Below, piece after piece: positions 30,999-52,446 of a stretch of DNA of 64,000 nt (its first letter is position 1; every line of letters begins with the position of its first letter). Under the pieces are notes generated by a model, which was not told the origin of the DNA, did no database searches, and worked only from the letters and a program-made list of their open reading frames with translations. A program made the translations under genes and the position numbers. The stretch is taken from assembly GCF_023516555.1 (NCBI RefSeq), contig NZ_JAMGBD010000002.1:248001-312000 (forward strand), written 5' to 3'. Source of the DNA: Sphingomonas alba (lineage in GTDB: Bacteria; Pseudomonadota; Alphaproteobacteria; Sphingomonadales; Sphingomonadaceae).

Positions 30999-31074
30999 GG
31001 CCCCTTCGTCTAGCGGTCTAGGACGTCGCCCTCTCACGGCGAAAACACGGGTTCGAGTCCCGTAGGGGTCACCA
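30999..31074 (+). tRNA. tRNA-Glu (anticodon CTC)
   Basis: A complete 76-base cloverleaf. Acceptor GGCCCCT pairs with AGGGGTC (one G-T pair) and CCA is encoded. The anticodon arm has loop CTCTCAC with anticodon CTC, and the T arm is ACGGGTTCGAGTCCCGT. Its 3' half is the insertion site of the element that follows; the element regenerates an intact gene. Confidence 0.93.
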
Positions 31075-31076
31075 GC
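31029..31076 (+). repeat. Left attachment repeat (attL) within tRNA-Glu
   Basis: 48 bases from the anticodon arm to two bases past CCA, identical to 52399-52446. The match starts CCCTCTCACGGCG and ends GGGGTCACCAGC; it breaks on both sides. Confidence 0.93.
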
Positions 31077-32085: not shown

Positions 32086-32298
32086 ATGACTGGACAAACT
32101 CAGCTCTTGGAGCCCCTGGCTTACTCGGTCCCCGATGCATGTGCCGCGCTCGGTATCGGAATGACCCAGCTTTATAAGGAGATTGGGGCGGGCCGGTTGA
32201 CGGTCTGCAAGGTCGGCAAGCGCACCTTGATAGAGCGGAGTGAAGCGCTCCGCTGGCTGGCGTCTTTGCGCGTCGCTGCTGTTTCGGCGGTGCACTGA
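32086..32298 (+). CDS. AlpA/excisionase-like DNA-binding protein
   Basis: 70 residues. A winged or MerR-type helix-turn-helix is readable: YSVPDACAALGIGMTQLYKEIGAGRL then KVGKRTLIERSEALRWLASL. This is the plan of AlpA and excisionase (helix_turn_helix_17) proteins, which switch integrase and lytic or replication genes in satellites and islands. GGAAG lies seven bases before the ATG. Its stop overlaps the next start (GATG), so it heads an operon with the coiled-coil genes. Confidence 0.8.
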   Translation: MTGQTQLLEPLAYSVPDACAALGIGMTQLYKEIGAGRLTVCKVGKRTLIERSEALRWLASLRVAAVSAVH

Positions 32299-32756
32299 TG
32301 GGCGCGCGGGGTGAGCGGCTGGCTGCGGCGCAGCAGGCGGTGGCTTCGGCTGAGGCTAAGCATGATGCTGCTATGGGCGAGTGGAAGGCGGCTGACATTG
32401 TTGAGCAGGGCGCGTGGGCATCCGAAGCGGCGGTACTGTTTGCGCGTCGCAAGGTCGCGGCTGGCGAAGCGCGACTTGAACCGGACCAGCTTCGCGAGCG
32501 GTTGGTTCGTGACCTTGGCGGGTGTGCTGGTCGCGAAGAGATTGGCTTTGCGGTCCTGTGGGCAATTGCGCGCAGCATGGACGGCGGCTCGACGGGCTTG
32601 CTGGACGATTGTTCTCCGATTGGCATGAGCGCGGTTGAGCTGAGGGCCCGGGCTGAAGAGCTTTGGGACGAGGGTGAGCGGGCGAAGTTCGATCTGAGTG
32701 AGGCGAGGCGTCGACTGCACGACATTGAAAAGGAGATTTCAAAGCGCGGCGCCTGA
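32298..32756 (+). CDS. Small coiled-coil protein of unknown function
   Basis: 152 residues, mostly helical and Ala/Glu/Arg-rich (RLAAAQQAVASAEAKHDAAMG and LSEARRRLHDIEKEISKRG), with a central non-coiled part (REEIGFAVLWAIARSMDGGS). It is coupled to the AlpA-like gene and sits 31 bp before the large coiled-coil ATPase, whose N-terminus has similar composition, so the two products may interact. No family recognised. Confidence 0.6.
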   Translation: MGARGERLAAAQQAVASAEAKHDAAMGEWKAADIVEQGAWASEAAVLFARRKVAAGEARLEPDQLRERLVRDLGGCAGREEIGFAVLWAIARSMDGGSTGLLDDCSPIGMSAVELRARAEELWDEGERAKFDLSEARRRLHDIEKEISKRGA

Positions 32757-32787
32757 GTGGTGCCGGTAATTGGTGGGTGGGATTACG

Positions 32788-35199
32788 ATGAACAACGACA
32801 GGATTGGATCACTTCGGGCGGATGTAGACTTTCGCGAGGATGTCTTGGCTTTGCGGGAACGCGCGCTCAGTGAAGCGTCGGCTAATACCAAGGAAGCATC
32901 CGACCGGATTGCTGAGCTGAAGGCCAGCCAGCCGGAGCGCGTTGAGAAGGCGCGCGAGGCGTTTGCTGCGGCCAAGGAAGCCAAGCGGCTTTCTGACGAG
33001 GCGAGGGCCGCGGCCAGGCGGGAAGTTGATGCGGCACAGCGTCGGGTCCAAGTCCTGCAGCGCGCGCATGCCTACATCGGCCCGCATGACCCCAAGGAAA
33101 TTGCGAAAGGTGCCGTAGACGCATTGCGCGAAAGCGAAGCACTGACTGAAGGCGACAATTTGCCGGAGCGCTTGGGAGTGGCGGCTGAACTGACTGACGG
33201 CGACTTTCGGGAAACGGTGACTGAGCTTATTGAAGAGGCAAGCCGCAGTGCTGCGATAGCTCGAGAGAGGCTTGCTGGGTTGCCGTCCGCCGCAGCGGTT
33301 GTGACCTCGTGGGGCCTGTCTCATCGCTCGCCGGCCGATATCGACACGGCCCGCTTAGATCAGGCGGTCGCGGATGCTGAGCGAGCCCTTGAACACGCGG
33401 AGCGCGAGCCTGACACGTCCCACTTGAAGCTGTGCCGCGATGCGGAGACGAGCGCGGCTGAGGCTGTGGCCGCGGCCAAATCTGAAATTGCCGCTGCAAG
33501 GGAGGCGCTTGCTGTTGGGGAGAGCGAGCTTGAGGAAGAGGCTCGCCAACGGGCGAGGATCCGAGAGGCTGCGGGCATCGGCGCTGTCGAGGCCGGAGAG
33601 TACCGGGCCTATTCGGTCAATGTCGACTTTCATTTGAGCCTGAATGGCATCGGCATAGAAGAAGTTCGCGCGCTTCATTCGAGTGAGGATTGCGATTTCT
33701 GCGAGCTGAGCTTTGAACAGGTCCAGCTGGTCCATAAAGAGCTGCGGTCGCGGATGTCGCGCTGGCATGAAGCACTTAGGCGGATGGGCTGCGTTGCTGG
33801 CGGCTTGATTGAGGCGCCTTACACCGGGGTCACCGACACGGGTTATTTCCTGCTGGTGCGCGGCGATGCCGACCTGCCGATATACAGCCCGCATTGGGAC
33901 GCGGATGGGGAGCAACTTCCTTGCCTTGGCATGCTCTCTCAGATTCCGGTTGAAGGCGTTCCGGGCGCTGAGCTTTCCCTTGTGGCGTGGGCTCATCCGT
34001 CCTCCATCGAGGAGGCCTATGACGCTCTGATCAATCTTTCTCACAGCCACCCGGTTGATGAATGGGGAGCCAAGCGAACGCCTGGCCGACTTCCGAAGGC
34101 CGATGAGCAGGTGTCTGACTGGCTGGCGCGTGTTGCGCTTTCGCAGAAGGCGACGAAGTTTTACGGCCGGCGCCTGAGGACGTTTGGTCTTAACCTACTG
34201 GCTGCGGTGAACTACCCGCATCCCGATGCTCCTGCCCGTCCTAAGGCACTTATCGACGGCCTGCTGTTCAGCGGTTACGTGGCGGTTCTGGGCGGCGCGG
34301 GCGGCGCGGGTAAGTCGACGTTCCTGCACAACATGCTCGCGGTGCTGAACGCACCGATAGACGCGCCCAATCAATTTCTTGGGCGGGATGTCACCAGGCA
34401 ATTCCCCGTCGCGTTCTTCGCCAGCGAGGGGACCGAGGAAGAGTTCGCTTACCGGTCGGATCACTACGAACGGCGCTGGGGCGATAGCTCGCTCCTCTAT
34501 CAGCGCGTCAATGCGGACGAGCTGAGCGCCCGTCTGGACGAACTGCGCGACCTGATCCTTCGGTCTGAAATGGAGGTTGGCGCGCTGGTGGTCGACAGCT
34601 TTCGCGGCACGACAAGCGCCAGTGAGAATTCGTCCGAGGAAGTCAGGGGCTACTATCAGCGGCTCATCGACTTTGCGGAAGAGACCGACTGGGCGGTCGT
34701 CGTCTCGCATCACTTGACCAAGGGCGATCCTAAGAGTTTTGCCGACCTGAAGAGCAAGATGCGCGGCTCTGGCGAGCATCTGAATTCGGTGCGGCTCGCG
34801 TTCGGCCTTATGTCGAGGAAGAACGGGCAGAGGGAATTCGGCGTTCTCAAAAGCAACGTGCCTCGCGAATTCATGTGGCTTGGTGAGGGTGAGAGCGTCA
34901 CGCTCCATAGCGATGCCGAGACGCACAGCTTTGAGTTGGTGGAAGCCAATCCTCAGAAGGAAGCTCAGGCCGCTACCGTGTCCGATGCGGAGCTGCAGCG
35001 TGTTCTCAGTGCTGTCGCGGCATGCAACGCGTCCGGCGTCGCTGTCCGTCGCTCCGGCTCGTCCGGCATATTTGAGCTTAGGTTGCCGGAGCTGGAGGGC
35101 ATGTCGCGTTCTGTCGCCCGATCCGCTTTCGATACCTTGGTTGCCTCCGACCGGCTGAGAGCCGGAGCGAATGGCATGACCGCGATGGAAGCTGGCTGA
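32788..35199 (+). CDS. Coiled-coil / RepA-like (AAA_25-type) ATPase
   Basis: 803 residues from ATG 32788, behind a GGGTGGGA site. Residues 1 to about 265 are coiled coil. A Cys-containing domain follows (SSEDCDFCELSF). Then comes a RecA-fold ATPase: Walker A GGAGGAGKSTFLHN near 502-515, Walker B ALVVDSFRG near 598, and a sensor-like VVSHHLTKGD. A winged-helix-like tail begins around 735 (AELQRVLSAVAACNASG). The core matches AAA_25/RepA hexameric helicase-type proteins of plasmids and phages. The long N-terminal coiled coil is not usual for RepA. Role inferred: replication or maintenance of the element. Confidence 0.75.
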   Translation: MNNDRIGSLRADVDFREDVLALRERALSEASANTKEASDRIAELKASQPERVEKAREAFAAAKEAKRLSDEARAAARREVDAAQRRVQVLQRAHAYIGPHDPKEIAKGAVDALRESEALTEGDNLPERLGVAAELTDGDFRETVTELIEEASRSAAIARERLAGLPSAAAVVTSWGLSHRSPADIDTARLDQAVADAERALEHAEREPDTSHLKLCRDAETSAAEAVAAAKSEIAAAREALAVGESELEEEARQRARIREAAGIGAVEAGEYRAYSVNVDFHLSLNGIGIEEVRALHSSEDCDFCELSFEQVQLVHKELRSRMSRWHEALRRMGCVAGGLIEAPYTGVTDTGYFLLVRGDADLPIYSPHWDADGEQLPCLGMLSQIPVEGVPGAELSLVAWAHPSSIEEAYDALINLSHSHPVDEWGAKRTPGRLPKADEQVSDWLARVALSQKATKFYGRRLRTFGLNLLAAVNYPHPDAPARPKALIDGLLFSGYVAVLGGAGGAGKSTFLHNMLAVLNAPIDAPNQFLGRDVTRQFPVAFFASEGTEEEFAYRSDHYERRWGDSSLLYQRVNADELSARLDELRDLILRSEMEVGALVVDSFRGTTSASENSSEEVRGYYQRLIDFAEETDWAVVVSHHLTKGDPKSFADLKSKMRGSGEHLNSVRLAFGLMSRKNGQREFGVLKSNVPREFMWLGEGESVTLHSDAETHSFELVEANPQKEAQAATVSDAELQRVLSAVAACNASGVAVRRSGSSGIFELRLPELEGMSRSVARSAFDTLVASDRLRAGANGMTAMEAG

Positions 35200-35574: not shown

Positions 35575-36063
35575 ATGCTGCGAACGAACCTTTTCAAGTA
35601 TTGCCCCCGGTGTGAGCAGTCGAAGCTGCGCGCCGAATTCAACAAGGAAGCCAGAAACAAGGACGGCCTGGCGCGGCGCTGCAAGCTATGTAGCCGGGCG
35701 CTGCACAAGGCATGGAGGGATTCCAAGCCCAAGGCGCCGCATAAGACTACCGATTTCGGCCCGTGGTTCGATCCGTGGCGAATCAAGCCTTACCGGCAGA
35801 ACCGCGTCAGGGATGTGGTTAGAGCGGCCTCTGGACCGTTGCTGATGAGTGAGGTCGCGGCCAAGGCTCGTCTTCATATCTACACCGTCAATCGCTGCCT
35901 CCTTCGGCTGCACGAAAGGGGCCTAGTCTCCCGTCACAAGCTGCCGATGCGGGTAGCTGCGTTCTGTTGGAAGACGCGAACAAGGAAGCCCGGCACGGGC
36001 ACGCGAATGCTGTACGTTTATAGCTGGTCTGGGCCCGTCGAATCCTCCCCCAATCGGCCATGA
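35575..36063 (+). CDS. Zinc-ribbon plus winged-helix protein
   Basis: 162 residues. The N-terminal part has two CxxC knuckles, KYCPRCEQSK and RRCKLCSRA, separated by a basic segment EFNKEARNKDGLA; this resembles the zinc knuckle of endonuclease VII/HNH-type phage proteins but no HNH core is seen. The C-terminal part looks like a winged helix (MSEVAAKARLHIYTVNRCL then LHERGLVSRHKLP). Probably a DNA-binding regulator or nuclease accessory of the element. Confidence 0.6.
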   Translation: MLRTNLFKYCPRCEQSKLRAEFNKEARNKDGLARRCKLCSRALHKAWRDSKPKAPHKTTDFGPWFDPWRIKPYRQNRVRDVVRAASGPLLMSEVAAKARLHIYTVNRCLLRLHERGLVSRHKLPMRVAAFCWKTRTRKPGTGTRMLYVYSWSGPVESSPNRP

Positions 36064-38627: not shown

Positions 38628-38693
38628 CCCTGACGCTCCTCCCGCTACTCGGTGCGGGCTCTCCCAAAATCATCCTGTTCAAAGGAAAGCCTT

Positions 38694-41600
38694 GTGATTC
38701 ATCGAGCATTGCGTTTCGCCATATTGGCCAGCAGCGCGCTTGCCGCGCCCGTCTACGGACAGGCCGTTCTTGTCCCGCCAACGCGCCAGCTGATCGACGA
38801 CAACAGCGTCGACCTGTTTCGCGGCCTCTACACGGTCGATGAGCCGGTCGCGACAATCGGCGGCAGCCAAGGGCTAGACCTCCGCAGGATCAACGTAGGT
38901 GCGGGCTGGACAAATAACATCATTGCCAATTTGCAGAGCAGCGGGAGCACCTTCTTCGCGACCGTCAATGGCCGCACCGACCGCTTTACAAAGTCAGGCA
39001 GTACTTACACCCCGACCGAAGCCAATGGCTCCTCGCTAACATTCGCCAGCAATATTTACACCTACACGGCCCGCGACGGGACGACCGTCACCTTCAACAA
39101 GGCGATCGTCAACACGGGCTTCGACCCTTACGGCAACGAAGGATTGGTGACCGCCATTGTCAGGCCAAACGGCCAGCGGCTCGACTACAACTACGACCTG
39201 CGCACCTACTGCGTCTTCTTCAATGGGGATTTCTGCCAGGGTGGGTTCAAGGACGTCCGTCGGCTCCAGTCGGTGACGACGGCTTACGGCTATATCGCGG
39301 AATATTCTTATTTCACCGACGATCTCGATGACGCCTCGGGGCTGACGAGCTGGTTCTTGGTAACCGACATCACGCTTCGTAACCGGTCATACGACCCGGC
39401 GAGCCAGACATGGCCCAGCCAGACGAATCCCAATCAATTGCTGAATACCTTTACCGGCACCGCCATTACCGGGGTCAAACGCCCCGGCAGCTCCAGCAAT
39501 GACATTACCATTGCCTATTCGAGCGGCAAGGTGAGCTCGATCACCGATCATGCCGGCACCACGACCTATGGCTATGCTGATGCTTCCGGGAACCGGACGG
39601 TCACCGTTACTAACAGCTTGAGCCAGGTCAGCACCTACGTCTTCAATATCAGCAGCGAGCGGCTCACCAGCTTCACTGACGCGCTCAGCAACACGACGAC
39701 CTACGCTTACGACAGCAGCGCCCGGCTAACCAAGATCACCAAGCCGGAAGGCAATTACACGCAATACACCTATGACGCGCGAGGCAACGTCACAGAAGTA
39801 CGGAACGTCGACAAGACCGGCACTTCGAGTAGCGCCGACATCGTCACGACGGCATCTTTCCCATCCTCCTGCACCAGCCCCGTCACGTGCAACCAGCCGA
39901 CCAGCACCACCGACGCGCGCGGCAATACGACCGACTATACCTACGATTCCACCCACGGAGGCGTTCTGACTGTCACTGGCCCGGCGCCGACCAGTGGCGC
40001 GACCCGGCCCAAGCAAACCTTCACTTATGTCACCGCCCAGGCACAAATCAGGAATACGTCGGGGACAATCGTCGGCACCGGGCAGAACGTCACGCTTCCC
40101 CAGTCCATCTCGCAATGCGCGACGACGGCGAGCTGCTCGGGCGGGTCGGACGAGGTCAAATTCACCGTCACCTACGGCACGACTGGAGTGGCCAACAATT
40201 TGCTGCCGACACAGGTCGCGAAGGGCAACGGGACCGGCACGCTGACCGCCACCACCAAGCTCGCCTATGACACCATAGGCAATCTAACCTCGGTCGACGG
40301 ACCGCTTTCCGGTACCGACGACACAACCACCGCACTGTATGACAGCCTTCGTCGACAGATCGGTGTCATCTCCGCTGACCCGGATGGCGCCGGAGGACGC
40401 CCGCGGCTCGCGTCGAAGAAGACATTCGCCACCAACGGAGACTTGACCAAGATCGAGACCGGCACGGTCACGGGGACCACGTTCAGCGACCTCAACTCCA
40501 TGACCGTCGCCCAGACCGTCGATATGACCTATGACGCCGATGGGCTGAAGTTGACCGACAAGTTGAGCGGCGGTGGGTCGGCCCAGACACTCACCCAATT
40601 TAGTTACGATACTGCCCACCGCCTGCAATGCACCGCGCAGCGGATGAACCCTTCGGAATTCGGTAGCCTGCCAGGCGACGCCTGCACTCTCGACACGCAG
40701 GGAAGCTACGGCCCGGATCGCATCACCAAGACTTTGAGGGACAGCGACGGGCGCCCGAATGAGATCAAGGTCGCGTTCGGCATATCGGGCGAGGAGGCCA
40801 GCGAGCGCAAGCTGAGCTACAACGCCAACGGTACGCTGCAGTATTTGATCGACGCGAATAACAATCGCACGACCTATGAGTATGACGGTTTCGATCGGCT
40901 GGTGAAGACACGCTACCCGATCACGACGATCGGTTCGAACAGCTCCAGCACCACCGATTATGAGCAGCTGTCGCTCGACAAGAACGGAAATGTCACCAGC
41001 CGCCGCCTGCGCGACGGAAACAGCATCGGCTACACCTATGACGGGCTCAACCGGCTGACCGACAAAGACTTGCCAGGCAGCGAACCGGACGCGGCCTACG
41101 CCTACGACTTACTCAATCGCCTGACCTCGGCAGTCCAAAACTCGCTGACAACCAGCCTGACTTGGGATGCGTTGTCGCGTAAGCTTACGGAAGCAACGAC
41201 CGGGCTCGGCACGGTCACCAGCGAATACGACCTCGCCGGCCGCCGCACAAAAGTCACGCTGCCGGGTTCGACCAGCCTCTTCGGCAATTACGACTACGAC
41301 GTGCTGGGGAACACGACGTCCATCCGGGAGAACGGGGCATCCTCCGGCGTCGGCGTGCTTGCTACCTATCAATATGACAGTCTCAGCCGCCGCAGCAGCG
41401 TCACGTTTGGGAACGGCGTGGTGCAGGACTACACCTATGACAACGCCTCGCGGCTGGCGACGCAGTCCAACGACCTCGCCTCAACTGCGAATGATCTCAC
41501 TCAGACCTTCAGCTACAGCCCCGCCAGCCAGATCACGAGTGTCGCCCGCAGCAACGATGCCTACGCATGGACCGGTCACAACAATGTCAATCTCTCGTCC

Positions 41601-42815
41601 ACGCCGAACGGATTGAACCAGATCGGCAATGTTGGCTCGGCCACCGTCACCCACGACAGCAAGGGCAATATAACTGCGGTCGGCAGCGACAGTTATGGCT
41701 ATTCAAGTGAGAATTTTCTGACCTCGGGGCCGGGAAGTACGACGCTGGGCTACGATCCGATGGGGCGGCTCTATCAGGTCGCCAATGGCTCAGGCACGAC
41801 CCGTGTGGGCTATGACGGCTTGGATCGGATCGCGGAATATGATGGCAGCAATGGCATTCTTCGCCGTTACATCCACGGGCCGGGCGTCGATAACCCGTTG
41901 GTTGCTTACGAAGGTACCGGCGCGAGCAGTCGCAGCTTCCTGTCATCCGACGAACGCGGCTCGGTCCTCACATCGACTGACAGCTCTGGCGCACTCTCAG
42001 CCGACAACAAGTATGATGAGTATGGCGTCCCGCAATCCAGCAACTCGGGCGCGTTCGGGTATACGGGCCAAGCTTGGGTGCCGGAGATCTCACTCTGGTA
42101 TTACAAGGCGCGGTTCTATCGCTCCGACATAGGCCGGTTCATGCAGACAGACCCAATCGGATACGAAGACAGCCCCAACGTTTATGCATACGTCGTGGGC
42201 GATCCGGTAAATCTGCTCGATCCGTCTGGGCTTGGTGGTACCATCCCGTGTCCCACGACGAGTGACGCTTGCCCAACCGGTCCGCGGAATCCGTGTTTCA
42301 GCAATCCGAGCTCCTGCGTTAACGGTGATCCGAACGGTGGGATCGCGTTTGCGGGCCCAAACCTGTTTTGGACCCTGCAGCGAGAAGATACAGGAGGGCC
42401 GGGCGATCGAGAGACGGTAGACGAGGAGATCGTCGTTACCGCCAAGAAAAAATCGGCAGTGGATAAGGTCGTCCAGTGCGCGCTTGATCAGTTTGGCATT
42501 ACCGGATTACTTGACCTTGGGACGGCATTGCTGGGCATACCGCAGGAGGGCAGCAAGCGTTTCGTGACTCCTGGATCATCAAGAGGCACCTCCGCACTTT
42601 CCGAGGGCTTGGCGCGGCGCTTTCCTCAGCGGATAGGAGAAACCAACTTTGGTCAGCGTTTCGGTGTTAATAGAATTTGGACGCCTCGATTGGCGCAGCT
42701 AAATCGAGCCACACCAGTCATTGGCCGCGCCGCTGGTCGCCTTATTCCAATTGCTGGTGGAATCTTATTGGCCAAAGACGTTGTAATGATCGTTGTCTGC
42801 TCGCGAAGGAGTTAG
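38694..42815 (+). CDS. Exported RHS-repeat polymorphic toxin
   Basis: 1373 residues from GTG 38694, eight bases after AAGGA. An N-terminal signal peptide (IHRALRFAILASSALAAPV) precedes an RHS shell with many YD repeats (YTYDARGNVTEV, YEYDGFDRLVKT, YDYDVLGNTTSI). The conserved end-of-core FYRSDIGRFMQTDPIGY ... DPSGL lies near residues 1135-1180. The roughly 190 residues after DPSGL are the variable toxin tip, with a Gly/Ala-rich helix near the end (VIGRAAGRLIPIAGGILLAK); its activity is not recognised. No T6SS (VgrG, PAAR) motif is seen, so export is probably Sec-dependent. The gene behind it is the likely immunity factor. Confidence 0.85.
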   Translation: MIHRALRFAILASSALAAPVYGQAVLVPPTRQLIDDNSVDLFRGLYTVDEPVATIGGSQGLDLRRINVGAGWTNNIIANLQSSGSTFFATVNGRTDRFTKSGSTYTPTEANGSSLTFASNIYTYTARDGTTVTFNKAIVNTGFDPYGNEGLVTAIVRPNGQRLDYNYDLRTYCVFFNGDFCQGGFKDVRRLQSVTTAYGYIAEYSYFTDDLDDASGLTSWFLVTDITLRNRSYDPASQTWPSQTNPNQLLNTFTGTAITGVKRPGSSSNDITIAYSSGKVSSITDHAGTTTYGYADASGNRTVTVTNSLSQVSTYVFNISSERLTSFTDALSNTTTYAYDSSARLTKITKPEGNYTQYTYDARGNVTEVRNVDKTGTSSSADIVTTASFPSSCTSPVTCNQPTSTTDARGNTTDYTYDSTHGGVLTVTGPAPTSGATRPKQTFTYVTAQAQIRNTSGTIVGTGQNVTLPQSISQCATTASCSGGSDEVKFTVTYGTTGVANNLLPTQVAKGNGTGTLTATTKLAYDTIGNLTSVDGPLSGTDDTTTALYDSLRRQIGVISADPDGAGGRPRLASKKTFATNGDLTKIETGTVTGTTFSDLNSMTVAQTVDMTYDADGLKLTDKLSGGGSAQTLTQFSYDTAHRLQCTAQRMNPSEFGSLPGDACTLDTQGSYGPDRITKTLRDSDGRPNEIKVAFGISGEEASERKLSYNANGTLQYLIDANNNRTTYEYDGFDRLVKTRYPITTIGSNSSSTTDYEQLSLDKNGNVTSRRLRDGNSIGYTYDGLNRLTDKDLPGSEPDAAYAYDLLNRLTSAVQNSLTTSLTWDALSRKLTEATTGLGTVTSEYDLAGRRTKVTLPGSTSLFGNYDYDVLGNTTSIRENGASSGVGVLATYQYDSLSRRSSVTFGNGVVQDYTYDNASRLATQSNDLASTANDLTQTFSYSPASQITSVARSNDAYAWTGHNNVNLSSTPNGLNQIGNVGSATVTHDSKGNITAVGSDSYGYSSENFLTSGPGSTTLGYDPMGRLYQVANGSGTTRVGYDGLDRIAEYDGSNGILRRYIHGPGVDNPLVAYEGTGASSRSFLSSDERGSVLTSTDSSGALSADNKYDEYGVPQSSNSGAFGYTGQAWVPEISLWYYKARFYRSDIGRFMQTDPIGYEDSPNVYAYVVGDPVNLLDPSGLGGTIPCPTTSDACPTGPRNPCFSNPSSCVNGDPNGGIAFAGPNLFWTLQREDTGGPGDRETVDEEIVVTAKKKSAVDKVVQCALDQFGITGLLDLGTALLGIPQEGSKRFVTPGSSRGTSALSEGLARRFPQRIGETNFGQRFGVNRIWTPRLAQLNRATPVIGRAAGRLIPIAGGILLAKDVVMIVVCSRRS

Positions 42816-49278: not shown

Positions 49279-50160
49279 ATGTTTGACGACATCCCAGAAG
49301 AACTAAACCAGTGGGTTCTAAATGCGCCGGAGGAACTGAGAGAACCTTACGCGTTTGGCAATTTGGCTATCCAGGCTGTAATCGCATTTTACCTAGGCAA
49401 GCTACTCGACCGTAAGGCCGCATTTCTCGATTTTCCGGACAATAGCCCGGGCCGGATTCCGTGGCAGCAAACCATACGTCTTACTCAGATAGCGCAGGCC
49501 CTATTCGTCCTGCGGCGACAGCCCGGATTTCGCGAGGTTTGCCGCCGCCTCGGGACGCGCGAAGACATGCGATCAGCGGCCTTTGAAGCATTTGCAGCGC
49601 AGATGTTTGGAGAGCGGGGATTCAGTGTGATGGCTCGCCCAGAGACAGGGCGGCTGGGTGAGGATTTCGACTTCGCGGTAAGGGCCGACGACGGCATGGA
49701 GATCAATGTTGAGGCCACTTCCCTTACCGTGCGCTCATTCAGCGAAGGCACAATCATGTCGGCACTGCGCAAAAAGCGCAGCCAATTGCCTAACGACAAG
49801 CCTGCCGTGATTGTGTGCTTTCTGCCCGGCACATGGAGAGAGCAAATCGGAGATCTGGTCGGCGTCCTTACGCCAATCGCGTTGAGGTTTCTTCGAGGGA
49901 CGAAGCGGATAAATCACCTCGTATTTTGCGAAGACCTAATGTCTCCATTCGAGAAGGGCGGTTCGGCCTCGTTTCACATTATAGGCTTCCGAAATCATTT
50001 CGTTCGTTTCGCCGCACCTAGGCTCGATAGGATGATTGTGGAGCGCCTGTGGAATGACAAAGAGGTGACGGAGTTTTTATCTTCGGAAACGCCCGAGGGT
50101 TTCAGCGGTTCAAGCGAACTGTTTCATTGGATTGAGTGGTTGAAGTGCCGCTTGGCCTAG
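49279..50160 (+). CDS. PD-(D/E)XK-like nuclease protein (restriction-endonuclease fold)
   Basis: 293 residues. The helical N-terminus (PEELREPYAFGNLAIQAVI) leads to a likely nuclease core: Glu103 in RSAAFEAFAAQMFGERGF, acidic pair in GRLGEDFDFAV (Asp129/Asp131) and Glu145 in MEINVEATSLT. The usual Lys of the ExK motif is replaced by Thr147, so catalysis is uncertain. The last third (NHFVRFAAPRLDRMIVERL) is unfamiliar. No methyltransferase partner is present. A solitary cargo gene of this type may be a defence or anti-competitor factor. Confidence 0.55.
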   Translation: MFDDIPEELNQWVLNAPEELREPYAFGNLAIQAVIAFYLGKLLDRKAAFLDFPDNSPGRIPWQQTIRLTQIAQALFVLRRQPGFREVCRRLGTREDMRSAAFEAFAAQMFGERGFSVMARPETGRLGEDFDFAVRADDGMEINVEATSLTVRSFSEGTIMSALRKKRSQLPNDKPAVIVCFLPGTWREQIGDLVGVLTPIALRFLRGTKRINHLVFCEDLMSPFEKGGSASFHIIGFRNHFVRFAAPRLDRMIVERLWNDKEVTEFLSSETPEGFSGSSELFHWIEWLKCRLA

Positions 50161-50239
50161 CGCTGCGTTAACCGGATGCGAAAAAGGCGGATAACAAAAC
50201 TTAACTAGGGGTCGGTCTTCAGAAAATGGCGGAAAGTCG

Positions 50240-50480
50240 CCGTTGCCGCGAGGTTTTGGCAACGGAAAATGGTGGGTGAACGCAGGTGAAAAGCCGATCT
50301 CGCTAAGCCATTGTATGACCAGCCTTTTCCGTTGCCGTGGTCATGACCGGCAACGCGGCAACGGGCGGCAACGGGTGGCAACGGAACGGCTAAGCCATTG
50401 GAATAATTGGATTTCCCGTTGCCGGTCACGGTTGACCATAATTCCGTTAAGTCATTGAAATCATTACCGTTACCGTTGCC
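50240..50480 (+). repeat. Iteron-like array of GGCAACGG motifs with composite units
   Basis: Nine copies of GGCAACGG or its complement CCGTTGCC occur in 241 bp: 50240, 50258, 50329, 50349 (one mismatch), 50357, 50367, 50377, 50416 and 50473. Three of the CCGTTGCC copies are each preceded, exactly 25 bases upstream, by TAAGCCATTG or TAAGTCATTG (50304, 50391, 50448). The region is non-coding. The regular spacing points to cooperative binding by an initiator or recombination protein. Confidence 0.8.
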
Positions 50481-50494
50481 GACTACCCTATAGT

Positions 50495-50529
50495 AGTAGT
50501 TCCAAGGAACAGGGCTTCCTTGGACTACT
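50495..50529 (+). repeat. Long hairpin beside the iteron array
   Basis: AGTAGTTCCAAGGAA and TTCCTTGGACTACT pair over 14 positions with one bulged T and a six-base loop. It starts 15 bases after the last iteron. No T-run follows, so a structural role (origin or accessory site) is as likely as termination. Confidence 0.65.
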
Positions 50530-50922
50530 TACTCTTTAGGTCGGGAGGGCAGCTGGCAACGAACGCGAGCGGGAAGATCTAGGATCGAAAGGGCGCGGTC
50601 ATGAAGAGAAGTTGGAGGGCGCCAGGCCGGACGGGGAGAGAGCGGAGCGGTCAGCGCGGTTCAGCTAGAGGATGTCGGGGGATCGCCGTGGATCAAGCGG
50701 TGAGATACCGATTGATGATATGATGTATCATTTAACATAATACGGCCACCATCGAAGGCATCCTGCGGGAATTACGGTGGGGCTAGAGCGCACCCTACCC
50801 GCCTATCTCGATAGCGGTTTAAACGGACTCAGAGGCACCGCAGGACTCAAAGAAAGGGGTGCCCGCTACCCACCTAGCTGACACCCCTAGAAAGCGCTGT
50901 ACGGGCCTTAAAACGACTCCTT
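50530..50922. other. Non-coding segment with AT-rich palindrome
   Basis: About 390 bp between the hairpin and the integrase stop. No gene seen. An AT-rich island at 50705-50745 contains the palindrome TGATATGATGTATCA (50716-50730), out of keeping with the surrounding GC-rich DNA. Confidence 0.5.
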
Positions 50923-52248
50923 TTAGGTGGCCTTCGCAGCGGTGATAGAGACCACGTTTTCACCTCGGTCTTCCTCAACCATCGGCACGATTGCTTTGCG
51001 CGCCACGTCTTCCAGAGCGTGAGCCATGAAGCGGGTATAGTTGCGCTCGATCATTGCGATGCTGGTGTCATGCAGCTGGGCGACCAGGCGCACCGGCAAT
51101 CCCTCGCGGAGAGCGCGAACGATAGAGCTGTGCCGGAATGAATAGGCGGATACGGAGTCACCCAGTTCTGCGGATTTGACGGCTGCGCGGATCGGGCGGG
51201 CCAGCTCTGCGGCGGACTGCCATGCTCCCCGGCTATCGCGCTCCCACGTCGCCGGGCCCGTCTGTTTATGACGCCAGCGCTCTAGCAGCGGCTCGCTCGC
51301 CTTGCGGCCCTTGGTGACCGGCAACAGGGCGTCGATGACGTCTTGCCCAACCGGAACGGGGACGCTGGCTCGCTGGGCGCTACCAACGCGGCCCTTGCGG
51401 GAAGCTGGCACCATGACGCGAAGCCGCGCGCCCTGAACGTCGCCAACGGTCAGGCGGCGGAGCTGGGCGAAGCGGGCGCCCGTCGCGGCCATAAGTAGGG
51501 CCATGCGGTAAAGATCGCCGTCCACGTCGCTGGCGTGGATCGCCTTCAGCAGCTTGCGCGTCTCCTGATCGGTCAGCAGCTTGCTCGCGTCGGCGGCTTC
51601 TTCGGCCGGCGCGTGGCTCTCGCCCTTGGGAGAGGCCAAGCCCTCCTTGATGATCAACTTCAGGGCAGCAGTCGGCGCGGATTCATTGAGCGCGGCCTTC
51701 AAGTCGTTGGTGACGCGCTGGCGGGTTGCAGGGGCAACGGCTAGCCCGGCGCGCCATTTGCGAAGCTGGGCAGCGGTGAGCGTATGCAGCTCCTTCGCGG
51801 CCAGATCAGCGTTGGAAACGACATGGCGGTTGAGCGCGCTGCCACAGCGGGCTTTGATGGGGCGACCCTCCTGCTTGGTGAGCCGCGCGTTCATCGCCTT
51901 GATGTAGCGCTCGACCGCATCCTTGACGGTCGACGCTTCGCCGTCGCCCAAGGCGTCGGTCTCGGTCGCCACCTTGTCGAACCAATCTCGGGCGGCGGCC
52001 TGCGCCTGGCCGAAGTTGAAAACGTCTGCGCCGTTGGCGTCCAGCGTGTCGTCCGCCGTGCCCAGCCGCTTCTCTCGGTAGCTCCCCGGCTCGCCTGTGC
52101 GGGCGAACCATGTGCCGCCGCGCGGTCCCTTGTAATAGCCGATATGGCGGCCTGTCTCGATCGCTCGATAGTAGGGCTTCTTGCGCGGCTCCAATCGCTC
52201 CCGCGCTGCACGGCTATCCAGCCGCACATCCTTCACTGTTCTCGCCAC
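50923..52248 (-). CDS. int: Tyrosine recombinase (integrase) of the element
   Basis: 441 residues. N-terminal arm-binding type domain (GYYKGPRGGTWFARTG), core-binding domain, and catalytic domain with Arg259 in AATGARFAQLRR, Arg372 in AYSFRHSSIVRAL (the box II His is Tyr369, a known variant), His393 in VAQLHDTSIAMI and nucleophile Tyr404 in ERNYTRFM. It lies 150 bp inside attR and is transcribed away from it, toward the element interior. It should insert the island at the tRNA-Glu 3' end. Confidence 0.92.
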   Translation of the reverse strand: MARTVKDVRLDSRAARERLEPRKKPYYRAIETGRHIGYYKGPRGGTWFARTGEPGSYREKRLGTADDTLDANGADVFNFGQAQAAARDWFDKVATETDALGDGEASTVKDAVERYIKAMNARLTKQEGRPIKARCGSALNRHVVSNADLAAKELHTLTAAQLRKWRAGLAVAPATRQRVTNDLKAALNESAPTAALKLIIKEGLASPKGESHAPAEEAADASKLLTDQETRKLLKAIHASDVDGDLYRMALLMAATGARFAQLRRLTVGDVQGARLRVMVPASRKGRVGSAQRASVPVPVGQDVIDALLPVTKGRKASEPLLERWRHKQTGPATWERDSRGAWQSAAELARPIRAAVKSAELGDSVSAYSFRHSSIVRALREGLPVRLVAQLHDTSIAMIERNYTRFMAHALEDVARKAIVPMVEEDRGENVVSITAAKAT

Positions 52249-52291: not shown

Positions 52292-52298
52292 CCCCTGC

Positions 52299-52379
52299 GC
52301 GAAGGCCGGTGAAGGCAGGCGAATGATTATTGGCAGTTTCTCTAGGGTTTGACGAATGTAGGCGAAGGCTGGTGAATGC
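52299..52379 (+). repeat. Pair of 18 bp direct repeats inside attR
   Basis: GCGAAGGCCGGTGAAGGC (52299-52316) and GCGAAGGCTGGTGAATGC (52362-52379) differ at two positions and are 63 bp apart. Further partial copies (GGCGAATG, ACGAATG) lie between them. Probable arm sites or excisionase sites. Confidence 0.5.
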
Positions 52380-52398: not shown

Positions 52399-52446
52399 CC
52401 CTCTCACGGCGAAAACACGGGTTCGAGTCCCGTAGGGGTCACCAGC
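52399..52446 (+). repeat. Right attachment repeat (attR)
   Basis: Perfect 48-base copy of the tRNA-Glu 3' half. There is no 5' half here, so it is not a second tRNA gene. Confidence 0.93.

Follow-up and report, generated by a model that had tools for sequence, protein, structure and literature searches.

What is the role of a crowded array of short repeats lying next to the integrase gene of an element integrated in the genome of Sphingomonas alba? The array occupies positions 50240–50480 of the window (the whole stretch of 64,000 nucleotides analyzed here, from contig NZ_JAMGBD010000002.1), and its repeat, CCGTTGCC/GGCAACGG, is found there in eight exact copies, four on each strand, within 241 bp. 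The initial annotation had counted nine copies, a figure that applies to the 7-mer CGTTGCC in the same 241 bp and has to be lowered to eight for the exact 8-mer. The array as such was confirmed, the 8-mer maximum being five copies in 1000 dinucleotide shuffles of 50160–50600 (0/1000 reaching the observed eight), and so were the three units in which a second motif precedes the iteron with a start-to-start offset of 25 bases (50304, 50391, and 50448). The region of interest exceeds the span first reported, extending over about 50225–50570, with the following features:

50225..50244, + strand: near-palindromic 20-bp box AAYGGCRGAAANNYGCCRTT, overlapping the first iteron
50240..50247, + strand: iteron CCGTTGCC, exact copy, overlapped by the box
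50258..50265, − strand: iteron CCGTTGCC, exact copy
50275..50290, + strand: integrase-arm-like repeat GGTGAACGCAGGTGAA inside the array, with the pattern of the 52298–52376 repeats
50304..50336, + strand: composite unit 1, TAAGCCATTG-N15-CCGTTGCC
50349..50384, − strand: tandem run of four iterons (one mismatch in the first), at start-to-start distances of 8, 10, and 10 bp
50391..50423, + strand: composite unit 2
50448..50480, + strand: composite unit 3, TAAGTCATTG-N15-CCGTTGCC, plus a one-mismatch iteron at 50467

The array is flanked by convergent genes, a 293-aa ORF (49279–50160, without a Pfam match) and the integrase, and overlapping ORFs of 71 and 74 aa cross this stretch on either strand, with no sign that they represent genes. 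The iteron blocks are opposed, with A or T at 17 of the 25 positions between 50391 and 50415, and within 50160–50922 an A+T content of at least 60% is reached only in the 40-base segments at 50440, 50700, and 50720.

The array belongs to an element of 21.4 kb that is bounded on either side by the same 48 bp from the 3′ part of tRNA-Glu; these exact repeats, together with the tyrosine integrase, support site-specific integration by an enzyme of its own. Its main features are:

31029..31076, + strand: left attachment repeat, 3′ part of tRNA-Glu (gene 30999–31074, ARAGORN), exact 48-bp repeat
32086..32298, + strand: AlpA/excisionase-like helix-turn-helix protein, 70 aa (Pfam HTH_17, 6.1e-7; PHROG 66, 1.4e-4)
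32298–32756: small protein, no Pfam match
32770..35199, + strand: RepA-type (AAA_25) helicase, the proposed initiator (Pfam AAA_25, 1.2e-18)
35575–36063: winged-helix-like protein
50923..52248, − strand: tyrosine integrase, 441 aa (Pfam Phage_integrase, 5.8e-9)
52298..52376, + strand: attachment-proximal repeats GGYGAANGCNGGYGAA, three copies, one of them mismatched, putative arm-type sites
52399..52446, + strand: right attachment repeat, 48-bp exact copy of 31029–31076

PHROG 66 is annotated as excisionase and transcriptional regulator, and the AlpA role is assigned from homology only; relatives of this gene are found upstream of the helicase in three other genomes (G008, G425, and G376, see below). 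The largest ORF of the element codes for an RHS-repeat protein (38652–42815).

No second cluster of CCGTTGCC exists in this element, and the 64-kb window has exactly three copies of TAAGYCATTG, all inside the array. The three exact units are the sole matches of TAAGYCATTG-N15-CCGTTGCC in the host genome; there was no further match in 397 genomes drawn from the family and none at all in IMG/VR, while loosening the spacing to N13–17 added one match in a set of 71 genus genomes, a lone N13 unit without an array. The search for the exact pair in relatives was fruitless because its motif is not constant; what succeeded was to compare the region downstream of the related integrase. The motif pair, which had been proposed as a query for other genomes, is unique to the window in its exact spelling, and its geometry recurs once, with a changed motif, in the sister element of G008.

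The integrase of G008 is 81% identical to that of the window, the next two relatives among the 71 genus genomes reaching 47 and 45%. Its element is built alike, with tRNA-Glu, an AlpA-like gene, a helicase (33% identical to the window helicase), the integrase, and a 49-bp tRNA repeat; at the DNA level the two are similar only in int and at the tRNA ends, apart from a few patches. In the same place downstream of int lies an array of the one-base variant CCGTTCCC, with nine CGTTCCC copies (L022:15445–15684). It holds one TAAGYC (TAAGCC), exactly 25 bases ahead of CCGTTCCC, a coincidence with a chance on the order of 1% by our own arithmetic (about ten iterons in 341 bp, one TAAGYC taken as given). 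It had been suggested that the idea of a functional array would fall if this region were unconserved among related elements with their flanking genes kept; what we find is mixed, in that the array is kept in the sister and its letters are not. A 12-base sequence, ATTTAACATAAT, is common to both elements between array and int (50730 and L022:15953), and a small ORF starting about 0.3 kb past the G008 array resembles HTH proteins weakly, at a score under the Pfam cut-off. The attachment-side repeat of G008 differs, being built on CTTACG, and its element contains a run of ORFs (L022 2624–8857), the largest of which, with 1526 aa, belongs by its match (1.7e-37) with a family of phage internal virion proteins.

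The window helicase has RSF1010 RepA as its best PDB match by profile (1g8y, 2.3e-11), and the core of its structure model resembles DnaB/RepA helicases. Its C-terminal 85 aa are predicted to form a winged helix; the long helical N part is modeled mostly with low confidence, the N-terminal half having no Pfam or PHROGs domain. In those element ORFs that were compared with Pfam and PHROGs, neither a dedicated initiator or primase gene or domain nor a match to RepC, RepB′, Rep_3, or RepA_N was recognized. Searches of the viral, phage, and plasmid collections found no relative of the window helicase; that of G376 has seven weak phage matches (∼27% identity) and none among plasmids, that of G425 is without a match in the plasmid collection, and a four-row helicase profile found 46 viral loci, all of them weak (22–35%).

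A helicase search of the 397 family genomes, scoring the first two candidates per genome, gave relatives in G008, G425, and G376 only; because two candidates were scored per genome, further relatives may exist. G425 and G376 were picked by protein and not by array, and in both an array lies 0.05–0.2 kb 3′ of the helicase gene; G376 has six CCGTTCCC sites and G425 five GCCATCCCC sites, four of them exact in either case. These arrays are smaller and weakly above chance, their 8-mer counts being reached in 8/1000 (G376) and 4/1000 (G425) shuffles. Next to each of the two helicase genes lies an integrase gene of a different type, which has an Arm-DNA-bind_3 domain; a tblastn query with the integrase of the window gave no match in the 40 kb around either (best E 2.7). 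Since G376 shares the CCGTTCCC motif of G008 despite its other-type integrase and a helicase 24% identical to that of the window, we consider the motif tied to the helicase and not to the integrase. In pairwise alignments with the iterons masked, the G376–G425 pair alone beats all 500 shuffles; G008–G376 and G008–G425 scores were reached by 13 and 10 shuffles, and those of the three window pairs by 138, 165, and 261.

The two motifs of the composite units look, from their letters, like two spellings of one YCRTT core. TAAGYCATTG has YCATT and CCGTTGCC has CCGTT, 21 bp (two helical turns) apart, and for this reason we treat them as one kind of site. The strict geometry had been attributed to a protein or dimer contacting two half-motifs; an initiator-like binding array is the best-supported reading of it, and the separate half-motifs are better replaced by the single core. 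CCRTT is present at 15 sites in 401 bp of the window array vs 1.5 expected, at 9 vs 1.3 in G008, at 7 vs 0.8 in G376, and at 3 vs 0.9 in G425, where the null maximum is 6. Same-strand iteron distances pooled from 12 arrays (including L087, whose nearly palindromic motif was counted on both strands) peak at 9–11 and 18–22 bp, and inverted pairs 15 bp apart start to start number two in the window, one each in G008 and G376, and none in G425. Such spacings are the pattern that a protein binding along one face of the DNA would give.

An 8-mer cluster scan of 86 integrase-relative loci (80 genomic and 6 viral) revealed arrays with quite different motifs (GCGCACC, TCAGTGA, CCTTATA, AAATGCGC, CCGTAG, AAACGGGT, and CCGGGAAA), sitting after AAA_25, DUF5906, or AEP-primase genes, and many of the 86 loci show no such array. 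The differing arrays by replication genes in L072, L087, L090, L091, L092, L122, and L128, alphaproteobacterial or viral, are candidate origins in their own right. A 7-mer with at least four copies in the 400 bp after the stop codon was found for 8/9 AAA_25/DUF5906 genes (excluding those of the window and G008, including G425 and G376; L075 is without an array) vs 70/1284 control ORFs, some of the 70 being the arrays themselves; the 8/9 count is biased, as the arrays of L072, L087, L090, L092, and L122 had drawn attention beforehand, the HMM was seeded by L072, L090, and L122 with L087 added by hand, and the L128 array had been seen in the cluster scan. The unbiased core of the array-after-helicase rule is 2/2 (G425 and G376). 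Among 15 integrase-relative loci besides G008, one (L034) has a comparable 7-mer cluster that is not GC-only, the clusters of L025 (16 CGCCGCC) and of L032, L024, L026, L033, and others (5–8 words) having been set aside as GC-only or CG-rich. In L034 (2426–2681; same record as L115) the repeats are TGCACCCC/GGGGTGCA, some of them forming palindromes GGGGTGCACCCC. This array lies 1.5 kb downstream of an integrase with 43% identity, and the contig ends 2.4 kb past it, with no helicase gene recognized there.

Besides the iterons, a box is common to four helicase-linked arrays (window 50225–50244, L022 15506–15525, L132 18321–18340, and L130 18186–18205). Its best 12-mer was reached in 0/100 shuffles for the window seed, 0/100 for G008, 3/100 for G376, and 1/100 for G425. 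A loosened version gave 42 matches in 31/119 family genomes, the window's own included, vs one for the reversed pattern, a control that may be unfair to terminator-like hairpins. As judged from ORF translations, many box sites adjoin ordinary chromosomal genes, one lying just upstream of a recF-like ORF; in the genome of S. alba itself, 10/11 other matches with up to two mismatches fall inside longest ORFs. Within 200 bp of 20 box loci the 7-mer copies were two or fewer in 14, three in four, four in one, and six in one, and among the 80 IMG/VR loci listed a 7-mer count of at least four was found near 35/86 boxes vs 8/80 random places. We rejected AAYGGCRGAAANNYGCCRTT as an origin mark, since it is present at chromosomal sites without iterons; it may represent a host-factor site or a hairpin class, and the literature search gave nothing usable on a known sphingomonad palindromic motif. 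GAAATC, the top 6-mer shared by the four arrays, was discarded as a second conserved box, being weak (four shared 6-mers vs a null mean of 0.67 and maximum of 4). As for the arm-like repeats, GGYGAANGCNGGYGAA has three copies by the attachment repeat and one exact copy in the array, with 0.3 expected in the whole window, and this last copy may couple recombination and replication.

We conclude that the array is probably the replication origin (oriV, with iterons) of a 21.4-kb tRNA-Glu-integrated, satellite-like element, served by the RepA-type helicase. This reading builds on the array and its geometry, the variant array in the sister, and the arrays directly 3′ of the helicase in two elements, all of which are observed. 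The course of events that we infer from them would begin with excision of the element as a circle by integrase and AlpA, in which the array would lie ∼3.7 kb from the helicase gene. Initiator molecules would line up on the YCRTT-core iterons along one face of the helix, using the direct copies 10 and 21 bp apart and the inverted pairs AAYGG-N10-CCRTT, and, once bound, would distort the neighboring DNA, the presumed site of melting, and load the hexameric helicase. The likeliest binder and initiator would be the helicase itself, through its modeled C-terminal winged helix. Speaking against an origin are the position of the array in the window and G008, beside int and about 13–15 kb from the helicase on the integrated map, and the modest AT-rich stretches. 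The same holds for the missing match to a dedicated initiator or primase in the ORFs searched, the unassigned N-terminal half of the helicase, the narrow margin of the G425 and G376 arrays over shuffles, and the occurrence of the shared box outside origins. A more specific version, which we offer tentatively and consider rather doubtful, is a self-sufficient initiator-helicase with its own winged helix, reading a YCRTT core in direct copies at 10/21 bp and in inverted copies with 10 bp between, whose iteron letters turn over between sisters with place and geometry maintained, so that sisters avoid each other's initiator.

Other functions could be imagined for an array in this place. The array might bind the integrase, AlpA, or an architectural factor and set the direction of integration or excision, as its position next to int in both the window and G008, the arm-like GGTGAACGCAGGTGAA within it, the three others adjoining the attachment repeat, and the possible excisionase AlpA would suggest. 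We consider this unlikely, given that the attachment repeat is about 1.9 kb away from the array, the iteron is absent among the attachment-proximal repeats, in G376, which has an integrase of a different type, CCGTTCCC follows a helicase gene, and several int-family loci have their arrays kilobases from int, by replication genes. Plasmid initiators and recombination directionality factors had been named together as possible binders: the likeness to plasmid initiators holds, and the directionality factor is weakened by the 1.9 kb and by the arrays beside other-type integrases. Comparably low is the probability of an operator cluster bound by AlpA or by the winged-helix-like protein at 35575–36063 in control of transcription. 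It could account for the small HTH-like ORF starting past the G008 array and for ATTTAACATAAT between array and int in both elements, and it fits poorly with an array placed between convergent genes in the window and 3′ of the helicase gene in G376 and G425; in our judgement, so many copies at helical spacing also exceed what an operator needs.

Quite improbable is a partition centromere or a packaging or helper-recognition site of a phage satellite. The internal-virion-protein relative in G008 makes a helper phage plausible, and motif turnover could track the helper, but the motif goes with the helicase, those element ORFs that were run against Pfam or PHROGs gave no ParA/ParB-like match, and cos and pac sites do not usually consist of multi-iteron arrays. 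We see hardly any chance that the inverted copies act by pairing in a transcript as a structured RNA, of which the P4 immunity RNA is an example: the folding z-scores (−3.4 and −4.6 for the two strands) would agree with it, but both strands fold well, as inverted repeats must, there is no Rfam match at gathering score, and the direct spacing of 10/21 bp fits a protein on one face of the DNA.

An iteron origin remains the reading we prefer. It provides the satellite-like islands of alphaproteobacteria with a concrete candidate origin that can be tested; our search of open-licence PMC papers found none described for them. The sister pair offers a natural experiment on the joint change of initiator and iterons, and the layout with an array 3′ of the helicase gene is a way to annotate origins in many islands.

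Among known systems, the phage-inducible elements of the PICI group (SaPI and EcCI type) share with ours the integrase, the AlpA-like protein, the helicase, site-specific integration, and element-specific short iterons. Passages of PMC6092414 place PICI origins, with iterons, immediately 3′ of rep and describe replication of a cloned rep-ori segment, and the two relatives G376 and G425, with the array directly 3′ of the replication gene, resemble that arrangement. The window differs: its proposed origin is beside int and not 3′ of the helicase, in the 400 bp that follow the helicase gene no 7-mer exceeds two copies, the array is ∼15 kb off, and the AAA_25 RepA-type helicase has no recognized primase part in the ORFs searched. 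The working plan is common to both, but because the proposed origin of the window and G008 elements sits so unusually, beside int, we have not classed the element as a PICI. With RSF1010/IncQ plasmids it has in common a RepA-family hexameric helicase (by profile and fold) and an iteron array, but RepC and RepB′ were not recognized among the ORFs searched, the helicase is extended by a long helical N part and, in the model, by a winged helix at its C terminus, and the iterons are 8-mers at 10-/21-bp spacing, those of IncQ being about 20 bp. The alpha protein of satellite P4, which acts with ori and crr, is a helicase with its own DNA-binding domain on iterons, as modeled here; unlike it, our helicase has no recognized primase domain, and CCGTTGCC has no second cluster in the element. 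The satellite PLE of Vibrio cholerae, in which RepA binds repeats in a non-coding region needed for replication (according to a passage of PMC7145576), is similar in having a satellite-encoded initiator on non-coding iterons, as proposed for the window element. The layout is of a known type, and the letters of the repeats vary from element to element.
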